Under the pieces are notes generated by a model. It had not been told where the DNA came from. It saw only the letters and a list, made by a program, of their open reading frames with translations, and made no database searches. Shown here piece after piece: positions 3,413-19,158 of a stretch of DNA of 25,392 nt (position 1 is the stretch's first letter; every line of letters begins with the position of its first letter). The position numbers and the translations under genes are program-made. Source of the stretch: a virus; the IMG/VR virus record IMGVR_UViG_3300025889_000868, positions 1 through 25,392 of that record; one strand, 5' to 3'.

Positions 3413-4104
3413 CATACGACTTTTCTTTCGCTCATTCACCAGAAGGTTTTGACAATCACATTGATAGTTCTATCCGTGGGTATTCAAATCTTCTAGAAGA
3501 CACTGTATCTTTCTCCCGATACTTTGTGGAAGATGATACCAAAGTCGTTGATGTGGGTTGTTCTACTGGTAAACTCACTAAGATGATCATCAGTAACAAT
3601 CCCAATCGTAAAAGGGCTCAGTATGTGGGTGTAGAACTTGCTGGTAGTTTTTATGATGACTTGTCTGAACGTCAGACAGAGGTTCGTAAAGAATATCCCT
3701 GGGCCCTCCTAGAGTGGGTTCGTGGTAATGTCACTAACTATGAGTTCAAGAACTGTTCTCTGGTGACTTCACTATTCACTCTACAGTTCATGCCCAAGAC
3801 CACTAGACAGGAGACTATCAATAAGATCTATGATGGTCTCAATGAGGGTGGTGCATTTATCTTTGCAGAGAAGTTGATGTGTGAGAATGCATTCTTCCAG
3901 GAACTTCTTACCTTCAATCACTATGATTACAAGAGAAAGACTTTCACTGCAGAAGAGATCATGGACAAGGAGAAACAACTCCGTGACATGTTAAAACCAA
4001 ATACCTGGTCTGAACTAAAAGATATGGTTACCAAAGCTGGTTTTAAAGATTGTCAGATCTTTTGGAGAAACCATCAATTTGTTGGAGTTATTGCAATTAA
4101 GTAA
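3409..4104 (+). CDS. CmoA-like SAM enzyme (carboxy-SAM synthase family)
   Basis: The 231-residue product aligns from end to end with E. coli CmoA, which converts SAM and prephenate to carboxy-SAM for wobble-uridine modification of tRNA. Shared blocks include RGYSNLL (23-29), motif I VVDVGCSTG (46-54), LFTLQFM (122-128), the IYDGLNEGGAFIFAEKL region (140-156), LLTFNHYDYKR (166-176) and KAGF (209-212). One key difference: gapless alignment puts Glu188 at the place of E. coli Arg199, which I recall binds the carboxylate of carboxy-SAM; an Arg (192) lies one helical turn later. The enzyme may therefore have changed its substrate or bind it differently. It overlaps the AsnB-like gene (TAATG) and stands one gene from a DNA cytosine methyltransferase. 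Family membership is clear; the reaction is uncertain. Confidence 0.85.
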   Translation: MTYDFSFAHSPEGFDNHIDSSIRGYSNLLEDTVSFSRYFVEDDTKVVDVGCSTGKLTKMIISNNPNRKRAQYVGVELAGSFYDDLSERQTEVRKEYPWALLEWVRGNVTNYEFKNCSLVTSLFTLQFMPKTTRQETINKIYDGLNEGGAFIFAEKLMCENAFFQELLTFNHYDYKRKTFTAEEIMDKEKQLRDMLKPNTWSELKDMVTKAGFKDCQIFWRNHQFVGVIAIK

Positions 4105-5501
4105 TGTGTGGAATTATTGGTGGATTTGACATTCCACAAATTGAAAAAGGTCTTCATGCAATTGTTCATAGAGGACCAGACAATCAAAAAGTAATTCAGA
4201 CGGACAATGTCTATTTTGGACATGTCCGTTTGTCTATTATTGATACTAGTAGCGATTCAAATCAACCGTTTGTTTATGGTAACACTACCATGATTTTCAA
4301 TGGTACGATTTGGAACTATCGTGAGTTGAGAGAAGAATTGGATATTGAAACAAAAACTTCAGGTGATACTGAGGTTCTTTGTGCTATTTTGGATAAGTAC
4401 GGTATTGAAGGATTGAACAGAGTTCAGGGAATGTTTGCCATTGCATTCACTCAAGGTGATGGATCTATTACTATTGTGAGAGATCGTCATGGTGAAGTTC
4501 CTCTTCACTATTCTCTTATCTCAGGTCTGTTTTCATCATTCTCTTTCTGTTCAGAGATCAAAGGTCTTCTTGCCATAGGTGAGAGCGGTCAAACCATCAA
4601 GATGTTGGAACCTGGTGCATTTATTAAGGTTACATCTAATTTCACTGTGGAAGAAGGATATTGGTATAATATTAGAGAACATATCACAGATACTTCTACA
4701 TGGGGTTTTGATGACTCTAAGGCAATGATTTATAGAAATATTGTGATGGGTTCTTTTGAAAGAACTGTTGCCGATGTTCCTGTTGCTTGTCTTTTATCAG
4801 GTGGTATTGATTCTGCTATTACAACACTTGTTGCTTCTCAAAACATTCCAAATTTGGTGACATATATTGCAGTTCATAATGAGAACTCAAAGGATCTTAA
4901 GTCTGCCAGAGAAGTTGCTAAATATTTGGGAGTTGAACTGAGAGAAGTCAAAGTTCGACCTCCTACAGTTGATGATGTTAATGATGTTATCAATACTATT
5001 GAGATGCCATACAAGGCCCAGGTAGAGATTGGATACCCATGTATTCAGCTTGCAAGGAGAATCCATGAAGATGGATTCAAAGTGATTATGTCTGGTGAAG
5101 GTAGTGATGAACTCTGGGCATCCTACGGTATGAGTTACCATGGAATCAAAGATCATGGTTGGAAAGACTATAGAATTGGTTTGTTTGGTTCACAACACCG
5201 TAAAAACTTTTCGAGATGTAATAAGATCTTCATGAAGTATGGTATTGAATGTAGATTACCATTTCTCAATACTCAATTGGTAGAAACTGCACTTGGTCTT
5301 CCTCAAGATATTGTGTGGGATGGTAAGTCTAGACCTAAGGCAATTCTTCAAGAAGCATTTAGAGATCGACTTCCTGACGATATTATTGATAGGAAGAAAG
5401 TAGCATTTCAAGATGGTATGGGTATTAAGAGTCTTTATGAAAATATTGTTGACTCACCAAAAACATATTATAATGACCACTATAAGAAGAAGTTTACATG
5501 A
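4104..5501 (+). CDS. AsnB-like glutamine-hydrolysing amidotransferase
   Basis: The 465-residue protein has two domains. The N-terminal class II glutaminase begins with the nucleophile Cys2 (MCGIIGGF) and shows HRGPD, HVRLSIID, FNG (65-67) and SGD (86-88). The ATP-dependent synthetase domain has the PP-loop LLSGGIDS, MSGEGSDELWASY and IECRLPFL. Family enzymes release ammonia from glutamine, adenylate a carboxylate and form an amide; AsnB uses aspartate. Compared with E. coli AsnB (about 554 residues) it is shorter. The usual NGEIYN reads NGTIWN, replacing a Glu that I recall contacts glutamine, and RDRFGxKPLY reads RDRHGEVPLH. Sandwiched between a CmoA-like enzyme and a DNA cytosine methyltransferase with overlaps on both sides, it may amidate something other than aspartate. 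Cyanophage homologues are usually annotated asparagine synthase. Confidence 0.88.
   Translation: MCGIIGGFDIPQIEKGLHAIVHRGPDNQKVIQTDNVYFGHVRLSIIDTSSDSNQPFVYGNTTMIFNGTIWNYRELREELDIETKTSGDTEVLCAILDKYGIEGLNRVQGMFAIAFTQGDGSITIVRDRHGEVPLHYSLISGLFSSFSFCSEIKGLLAIGESGQTIKMLEPGAFIKVTSNFTVEEGYWYNIREHITDTSTWGFDDSKAMIYRNIVMGSFERTVADVPVACLLSGGIDSAITTLVASQNIPNLVTYIAVHNENSKDLKSAREVAKYLGVELREVKVRPPTVDDVNDVINTIEMPYKAQVEIGYPCIQLARRIHEDGFKVIMSGEGSDELWASYGMSYHGIKDHGWKDYRIGLFGSQHRKNFSRCNKIFMKYGIECRLPFLNTQLVETALGLPQDIVWDGKSRPKAILQEAFRDRLPDDIIDRKKVAFQDGMGIKSLYENIVDSPKTYYNDHYKKKFT
5446..5474 (+). promoter_or_regulatory. Possible promoter ahead of the DNA methyltransferase gene
   Basis: A perfect -10, TATAAT at 5469-5474, has TTGTTG 17 bases upstream (5446-5451). 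The predicted start is near 5481, just ahead of the ATG at 5498. The -35 matches only TTG of TTGACA. It lies inside the AsnB-like coding sequence, so a chance match is possible. Confidence 0.35.
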
Positions 5502-6619
5502 CCAAGTTGCCCTATAAATTACAAGATGTCTATGACGGTGAGGCTCAGGAAAAGTTCACCGTTATTTCTACATTCGCTGGTGGAGGTGGTTCCTCTACTG
5601 GGTATCGTCTTGCAGGTGGTAAAATCCTCTGTATTAATGAGTTTGTAGAGGAAGCAAGAAGGACATACTCACAAAACTATCCAACAACCACTATTCTTCC
5701 TGGTGACATCAAAGAGTTGACAGGTAAAGATTTCTTGGAAGCCACTGGTTTGAAACCAGGAGAACTTGATATTCTTGATGGTTCACCACCATGTTCTGCA
5801 TTTTCTGTTGCAGGATCTATGTGTCGTGGTGAAGGATCTAAACATTCTGATGGGTGGGGAAAGACCAAGAACTATTCTGATGGTAAGAAAGTAGAGAATA
5901 TTGAAGATCTCTTCTTTGAGTATATTCGTGTTGCTAATGATATTCGTCCAAAGGTTATTGTTGCGGAGAACGTCAAGGGTTTGACCATTGGTGAGGCTAA
6001 GACTTATTATGCAAAGATTACTAATGCATTTGAAGAAATTGGATATCTTGTCACTTCAAAAGTGATGAAAGCATCTCATTATGGTGTGGGTCAAGCAAGA
6101 GAAAGACTTATCTTTATTGCAGTTCGTGATGACATTGCAGATCAGATTGGTTTGAATGTCTTGACTGTATCTTCTCTGTTCCCTCCTACATCATCTAAAG
6201 ATACTACTATCGGTGATATTATTGATGGTGTAGAGAATGATCCTGATAATGTCAAGGGTCTTACGGAACACATGTTGAAGAGTGGTATCTATCAGAGTGT
6301 TGTGAAGAAAATGCCTAAGGATCCTAAAAAGATTCTTTCAGGTATGGATTATCATGAGAAGGGTCATTGTTTCAATACTAAGAGAGCATCATTCTACAAA
6401 CCATCTCCTACACTGACTGCAAGTGGTGGTTTGATTCACTGGAATGAAGACAGAGTATTATCTGTTCCAGAACTTAAACGTATCCAATCACTTCCTGATG
6501 ATTTCATTCTGACTGGTTCTCATTCACAACAAACAGAGAGAGTTGGTCGTATGGTTCCTCCTCTGATGATGAAAGCCATTGCGGAGAATATTTATAAAGA
6601 GGTTCTATCTAAACTCTAA
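5498..6619 (+). CDS. DNA cytosine-C5 (carboxy)methyltransferase candidate
   Basis: The 373-residue protein has the ordered motifs of DNA C5-cytosine methyltransferases: motif I STFAGGGGSSTGY (24-36), motif IV with catalytic Cys99 in GSPPCSAFSVAG, motif VI AENVKG (156-161), motif VIII QARERLIFIAVR (199-210), motif IX region RASFYKPSPTLTASGG and motif X VGRMVPP (349-355). The enzyme flips a cytosine, attacks C6 through Cys99 and transfers a one-carbon group from SAM to C5. Motif X normally reads GNxVPP; here Asn is Arg351 (codon CGT at 6548-6550). Because motif X lines the SAM pocket, this may fit an unusual donor such as carboxy-SAM. The target domain between motifs VIII and IX is short. The ATG overlaps the AsnB-like stop (ATGA). 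There is no restriction partner in the window. Confidence 0.88.
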   Translation: MTKLPYKLQDVYDGEAQEKFTVISTFAGGGGSSTGYRLAGGKILCINEFVEEARRTYSQNYPTTTILPGDIKELTGKDFLEATGLKPGELDILDGSPPCSAFSVAGSMCRGEGSKHSDGWGKTKNYSDGKKVENIEDLFFEYIRVANDIRPKVIVAENVKGLTIGEAKTYYAKITNAFEEIGYLVTSKVMKASHYGVGQARERLIFIAVRDDIADQIGLNVLTVSSLFPPTSSKDTTIGDIIDGVENDPDNVKGLTEHMLKSGIYQSVVKKMPKDPKKILSGMDYHEKGHCFNTKRASFYKPSPTLTASGGLIHWNEDRVLSVPELKRIQSLPDDFILTGSHSQQTERVGRMVPPLMMKAIAENIYKEVLSKL

Positions 6620-18738: not shown

Positions 18739-19158
18739 TCACTTATCGTTTCGCATAACAACTTCATAAATTCTAGTTCTTTCACTCACAAAAAATCTTC
18801 CTTCAATATTTGTATTATAATAACCATCAGTCATTAGAACATCTCTTTTGAATTGTTCCATAGTTTCGTAATAAGACATTGATTTTTTGTGAGGACACAA
18901 ATAAAGTATTTCTCTTAAAAATTTATCCTCACCAAGAAGTTTTACATCTTCATTTAATTCATCACAAGATCCAAAATATTTTTTCCAATCACTCTCTTTT
19001 GTTTTTCTTCTACCAGTCTTTTTATCTTTTCTTCTTGTCCAAAAAGATTTCTTACCAACATACTTTCTATCATTTGTTAAATTTGTTATGAGGTAAACAA
19101 ATCCTTCCATACCTTTTGGTGCTTCAGTAAAGTTTTCTTCGTTATATTTCCAAGACAT
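18739..19158 (-). CDS. GIY-YIG family endonuclease, probably homing type
   Basis: A 139-residue protein on the minus strand, the only such gene in the window. It shows the GIY-YIG core: GFVYLI (19-24) for GIY and KYVGKK (32-37) for YIG, then SDWKKYFGS, the catalytic-Glu helix SYYETMEQFK (Glu98) and the Asn-containing YYNTNIEG. T4-like phages carry such nucleases as free-standing homing endonucleases (Seg type), and the insertion beside nrdB fits, since nrd genes are classic homing targets. It has an A/T-rich composition and lacks a clear DNA-binding tail. No convincing promoter was found upstream on its strand. Confidence 0.75.
   Translation of the reverse strand: MSWKYNEENFTEAPKGMEGFVYLITNLTNDRKYVGKKSFWTRRKDKKTGRRKTKESDWKKYFGSCDELNEDVKLLGEDKFLREILYLCPHKKSMSYYETMEQFKRDVLMTDGYYNTNIEGRFFVSERTRIYEVVMRNDK

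Follow-up and report, generated by a model that had tools for sequence, protein, structure and literature searches.

The CmoA-type protein encoded in the window, i.e., the whole 25,392-nucleotide stretch of viral DNA analyzed here (IMG/VR record IMGVR_UViG_3300025889_000868), is probably a functional carboxy-SAM synthase supplying the neighboring CmoX, and it probably binds the carboxylate with Arg192, a residue placed one helix turn along from, and standing in for, the Arg199 of E. coli CmoA. The window represents an ordinary case of a phage DNA modification system that is known and was recently described, and the new point here is hence a modest one: namely, a family-wide reciprocal pattern, read from the sequences, at the alignment columns equivalent to residues 199 and 203 of the E. 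coli enzyme (columns 199 and 203). In the literature searched, we found no report on the relocation of an arginine from 199 to 203, and neither a ligand-bound structure nor a mutant of an Arg203-type CmoA was found. The features discussed below are collected in Table 1.

Table 1. Positions in the window of the CmoA, CmoY, and CmoX genes and of the residues considered in this study
Feature	Position	Strand	Basis
CmoA-type carboxy-SAM synthase (predicted), 231 aa	3409..4104	+	87.9% identity to S-B43 CmoA, full length
His17, equivalent to E. coli Met31	3457..3459	+	35/35 His (Arg203 clade) versus 42/42 Met (Arg199 class)
Lys187, equivalent to E. coli Lys198; register anchor	3967..3969	+	invariant in 307/307 aligned CmoA
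Glu188, equivalent to E. coli CmoA Arg199	3970..3972	+	codon 188 = GAG; phmmer, HHalign, models
Arg192, at the position of E. coli CmoA Glu203; proposed to bind the carboxylate	3982..3984	+	codon 192 = CGT; 199/203 pattern, tree
CmoY-type amide ligase (predicted) with N-terminal glutamine amidotransferase domain, 465 aa	4104..5501	+	Pfam GATase_6, GATase_7, Asn_synthase; AsnB 1ct9
CmoX-type DNA cytosine C5-carboxymethyltransferase (predicted), 373 aa	5498..6619	+	best PDB match 8yf3, E 5e-227, residues 3-373
Catalytic Cys99 of CmoX, SPPC motif (Cys98 in SpCmoX)	5792..5794	+	comparison with PMC12783734
Arg351 of CmoX = SpCmoX Arg350 = HhaI Asn304 position	6548..6550	+	comparison with PMC12783734

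Reciprocal exchange at columns 199 and 203

In E. coli CmoA, Arg199 is reported to bind the carboxylate of carboxy-SAM and is the only residue reported to touch the carboxyl group; indeed, this residue was proposed as a marker by which carboxy-SAM enzymes can be told apart from ordinary methyltransferases (Byrne 2013). The window CmoA has Glu188 instead of Arg at this column, with Arg192 one turn further on, and this assignment, originally made in the initial annotation, is borne out by sequence, profile-profile, and predicted-structure comparisons alike. Given that E. coli CmoA has Glu203 where the phage protein has Arg192, the difference is a reciprocal Arg/Glu exchange and not a simple loss of Arg. 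The initial annotation also called for a survey of this position in homologues; in a first set of 92 proteins, Glu188 was found in 84 and Arg192 in 87, and such recurrence is explained by neither chance nor a sequencing slip.

The exchange was also evident in an alignment of 307 distinct CmoA proteins taken from viral contigs, phage records, and Enterobacterales. The residues at columns 199/203 were R/E in 150 proteins, E/R in 146, S/R in three, K/E in three, Q/R in two, and A/R, Q/K, and I/E in one each. Exactly one basic residue is present across the two columns in 306 of the 307 proteins, the sole exception being a protein with Ile199/Glu203 (L372) and hence with no basic residue at either column. 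Two classes can be distinguished: namely, the E. coli-like proteins with Arg or Lys at 199 and Glu at 203, and a phage clade that always has Arg or Lys at column 203, with Glu, Gln, Ser, or Ala at column 199. In a wider cellular set, which was drawn from a spread of 150 genomes of the phylum of E. coli, the CmoA-like matches comprised 42 R/E proteins and three exceptions (N/K, A/K, and S/K), all of which have Lys203.

We then examined a quick tree, which was built without the 199/203 site and carries SH-aLRT support only. The phage proteins with a basic residue at 203 and the two cellular proteins with Ala or Ser at 199 and Lys203 form one group in this tree, and the protein L390 (1498-2223) marks an independent change among the cellular proteins. 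L390 has Asn199/Lys203 with Met31 kept, and its gene is adjoined by a CmoB-like gene in a bacterial genome of ~1.1 Mb. On this tree, the basic position must have changed at least twice, i.e., once in the 203 clade and once in L390; only these two independent changes were found (sign test, p 0.5), which makes this a lineage pattern with too few events for statistical proof.

As an observation in its own right, a CmoA-like protein with Ala199/Lys203 (L414, 3848-4606) is encoded in a bacterial cluster resembling those for surface-sugar synthesis, where its neighbors are two further methyltransferases and genes that are NeuB-like and CMP-sugar-synthetase-like (names assigned by eye on the basis of sequence). 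Carboxy-SAM is possibly used on sugars at this locus.

Proposed roles of Arg192 and His17 in the carboxylate pocket

In the E. coli-like CmoA, the arginine that holds the carboxylate is Arg199, with Glu at 203; in the phage clade, position 199 is variable, with Glu as the usual residue, whereas position 203 of the same active-site helix is fixed as basic (Arg192 in the window). Most likely, Arg192 takes over the carboxylate binding, in a pocket that has His17 for Met31. Because exactly one of the two columns is basic in almost every CmoA aligned, column 203 is the one most likely to have taken over this task. The use of Arg192 instead of Arg199 was among the readings offered in the initial annotation, and it is the one that the family data at 199/203 and the tree favor, while the role of Arg192 in binding stays putative.

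Alternatively, carboxy-SAM might be made but with its carboxylate held by other residues (e.g., His17 or the invariant Lys187), in which case Arg192 and Glu188 would only form a salt bridge within the helix or a dimer contact; we consider this rather unlikely, albeit far from negligible. Indeed, when the positions were ranked by the difference between the two classes, His17/Met31 came first, followed by Arg192/Glu203 and Glu188/Arg199. His17 is within the N-terminal helix (residues 14-21 in the AlphaFold model of the window protein). This helix reportedly closes the cavity of CmoA (PMC5289526), and His17 may hence share the task of carboxylate binding. Since His17/Met31 divides the classes as cleanly as Arg192 does, furthermore, the pocket differs between them at more than one place. 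A salt bridge between residues 188 and 192 is, nonetheless, insufficient as an explanation of the conservation; members of the clade may have Gln, Ser, or Ala in place of Glu188, while Arg/Lys192 is conserved, which favors a functional role of Arg192 over its pairing with Glu188. Also, the separate bacterial shift to Asn199/Lys203 in L390 occurred with Met31 retained, which speaks against a carboxylate held by His17.

Carboxy-SAM synthesis by a CmoA without Arg199

The pathway has been described for the Synechococcus phage S-B43 in December 2025 (Yang et al. 2025, Nat Commun; PMC12783734). The S-B43 CmoA converts SAM and prephenate to carboxy-SAM (Cx-SAM, m/z 443) with a kcat of 2.33/s, which is about ten times faster than that of E. 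coli CmoA (0.23/s), and the S-B43 CmoX uses carboxy-SAM to make 5-carboxymethylcytosine in GC motifs, to which the S-B43 CmoY ligates glycine. For a second ligase cluster, of which no soluble enzyme was obtained, ammonia derived from glutamine was predicted as the substrate and amidation of 5cxmC in DNA as the reaction; ParB-domain partners are also mentioned (PMC12783734). Arg199 is absent from the main text of that paper. We have taken SpCmoA as QDH50618.1 (MN018232), which is the sole CmoA match in the record and is encoded beside CmoY and CmoX. As read from MN018232, this protein is 88% identical to the window CmoA and carries His17 as well as Glu188 and Arg192, the latter two in the segment MDKEKELRDML. 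Given that the S-B43 CmoA is active with Glu188, Glu at column 199 is compatible with carboxy-SAM synthesis, and Arg199 is no valid requirement for membership in CmoA.

It had also been considered in the initial annotation that the lack of Arg199 makes the window protein a plain SAM-dependent methyltransferase or a synthase of a different SAM derivative. Besides the status of Arg199 as the sole reported carboxyl contact in E. coli CmoA, the score of the window CmoA against TIGR00740 (E 7e-33, 114.3 bits) would be in line with such proposals, as it is below the curated cut-off of 193.3 bits, which the cellular Arg199-type enzymes clear. Both proposals are, however, contradicted by the S-B43 orthologue with Glu188/Arg192, which makes Cx-SAM from SAM and prephenate in vitro, and the partner CmoX in the window retains the Cx-SAM-specific Arg; we therefore regard them as very improbable. 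Prephenate-dependent synthesis of carboxy-SAM, which the initial annotation named as the result that would overturn its doubt on Glu188, has been demonstrated with the S-B43 protein, and the window CmoA would, by analogy with an enzyme of such high identity, perform the same reaction.

The window CmoA is otherwise close to the E. coli enzyme (P76290; 4gek and 4iwn). The top structural matches were the solved CmoA structures 1im8, 4iwn, and 4gek with a Z of 30, and the next group was at 26; the rmsd to the E. coli structures was 1.9-2.1. Several SAM-binding residues are kept (Y25, D48, G50, and S52, corresponding to Tyr39, Asp62, Gly64, and Ser66 in E. coli), as is the TLQF motif (T124-F127), and the reaction would be that of the family. 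The two proteins differ in Glu188/Arg192/His17 of the window versus Arg199/Glu203/Met31 of E. coli and also in their use: E. coli CmoA serves the synthesis of cmo5U in tRNA with CmoB, whereas the window CmoA would serve DNA modification.

Register of the alignment around Glu188

In the phmmer alignment with 4gek, Arg199 falls on Glu188 with a single gap upstream, in KRANG/KRKT, and the alignment is then gap-free to KAGF. An identical register was obtained by profile-profile alignment (HHalign) of 35 Arg203-type against 42 Glu203-type CmoA, and the MAFFT alignment also keeps a near-ungapped register. In the AlphaFold models (pLDDT of 95.6 for the window CmoA and 88 for E. coli CmoA, the latter being lower near the site with blocks of 77 and 74), a 12-residue helix spans residues 181-192 of the window protein and 192-203 of the E. 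coli protein, and the next helix spans 200-210 and 211-221, respectively; all the boundaries are hence offset by 11. Within the 12-residue helix, Glu188 and Arg199 each occupy the 8th position, and Arg192 and Glu203 each occupy the 12th.

The initial annotation had left room for a better alignment that places an Arg at 199; we sought one and found none, with phmmer, MAFFT, HHalign, and the helix boundaries all keeping Glu188 in place. It is scarcely credible that the alignment is displaced by a full helix turn, with Arg192 as the true equivalent of Arg199 and compensating indels on both sides: E. coli RSML does resemble RDML at phage 192-195 by eye, but the three methods agree on the register, Lys187/Lys198 is invariant, and the helix boundaries are offset by exactly 11 both before and after the site. 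The four-residue shift putting Arg192 on Arg199 was ruled out by HHalign and the helix boundaries.

CmoX, CmoY, and the neighboring genes

The initial annotation saw in Glu188 the principal weakness of the pathway hypothesis. This concern has been removed: the pathway has been published, and all of its parts are present in the window, including the carboxylate-reading Arg in CmoX. The window CmoX matches 8YF3, the structure of the S-B43 CmoX, across its whole length and has both the SPPC motif and an Arg at the position of HhaI Asn304. The equivalent Arg350 in SpCmoX binds the carboxylate of Cx-SAM (PMC12783734). The window CmoA would supply carboxy-SAM to this neighboring CmoX, which would place a carboxymethyl group on C5 of cytosine in the phage DNA, and the glutaminase-type CmoY would then probably convert the carboxylate to an amide. 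The predicted end product for the window is, accordingly to this scheme, 5-carbamoylmethylcytosine.

Among viral loci, with some duplicate contigs included in the counts, the readable CmoX beside CmoA has SPPC and the carboxylate-reading Arg throughout (177/177 with E/R, 5/5 with R/E, and 5/5 with K/E); the pairing of a Glu188-type CmoA with an ordinary C5 methyltransferase was ruled out, as all readable CmoX of the E/R class have these features. Most of the viral R/E loci have no CmoX inside the flank examined. At L304, L306, L308, L331, L087, and L088, an R199-type phage CmoA was observed with no CmoX within about 6 kb and with other genes alongside it. Separately, a CmoA that is basic at 203 was observed in Staphylococcus phages and a few others (L085, 6461-7468; L086, 5681-6679; L371; L147; and L221), where the C5 methyltransferase partner has GSPC or GFPC and is without Arg at the carboxylate position of CmoX. 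These partner enzymes may have another way of reading carboxy-SAM or may not read it.

The window shares with S-B43 (PMC12783734) the gene order of CmoA/CmoY/CmoX downstream of a MazG gene, and the CmoX proteins are closely similar from end to end, both having SPPC and the carboxylate-binding Arg. CmoY is, in contrast, different: the window has the 465-residue glutamine amidotransferase type, which corresponds to the second ligase cluster of the paper, whereas the S-B43 CmoY is a glycine ligase of 271 residues with 21% identity, over 231 columns, to the synthetase part of the window CmoY. The window CmoY starts with MCGIIGG and contains LSGGIDS and SGEGSDEL, the features of a glutaminase with an N-terminal Cys and of an ATP-PPi synthetase, and the same form was found in 62 other viral loci. 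We also noticed, near the glutamine site, NGT in all 61 readable CmoY of the window type (4104-5501 in the window) versus NGE in E. coli AsnB; this glutaminase domain retains both the N-terminal Cys and the Asp after it. The Synechococcus phages S-CRM01 and RN05-S resemble the window in having CmoA with Glu188/Arg192 and an adjoining CmoX but have no ligase gene between the two. Since CmoY differs or is missing among S-B43, S-CRM01, RN05-S, and the window, the ligase is the interchangeable component of the cassette. Elsewhere in the window, a SegE-like GIY-YIG homing endonuclease is encoded on the opposite strand (18739-19158, -), just after the ribonucleotide reductase genes.

Implications for the CmoA family

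The low activity of E. coli CmoA has been attributed to tight product binding (Kim 2015), and the pocket of the phage enzyme could thus be looser and faster. We speculate that the shift of Arg loosens the product binding and raises the turnover; the tenfold difference in kcat fits this idea but might have many other causes. It is conceivable, and we propose this only tentatively, that carboxy-SAM synthases comprise two classes holding the carboxylate from different turns of one helix (Arg199/Glu203/Met31 and X199/Arg203/His31) and that selection has favored quicker product release and a higher flux in the second class, which phages use for DNA modification; no such proposal was found in the literature searched.

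If Arg199 were used as a marker, most of the phage CmoA sampled here would be mistakenly left out. A two-position rule, i.e., a basic residue at either of columns 199 and 203, can replace it and predicts single and double mutants that are testable, and the shift of the basic residue offers a possible reason for the tenfold faster turnover of the phage enzyme.
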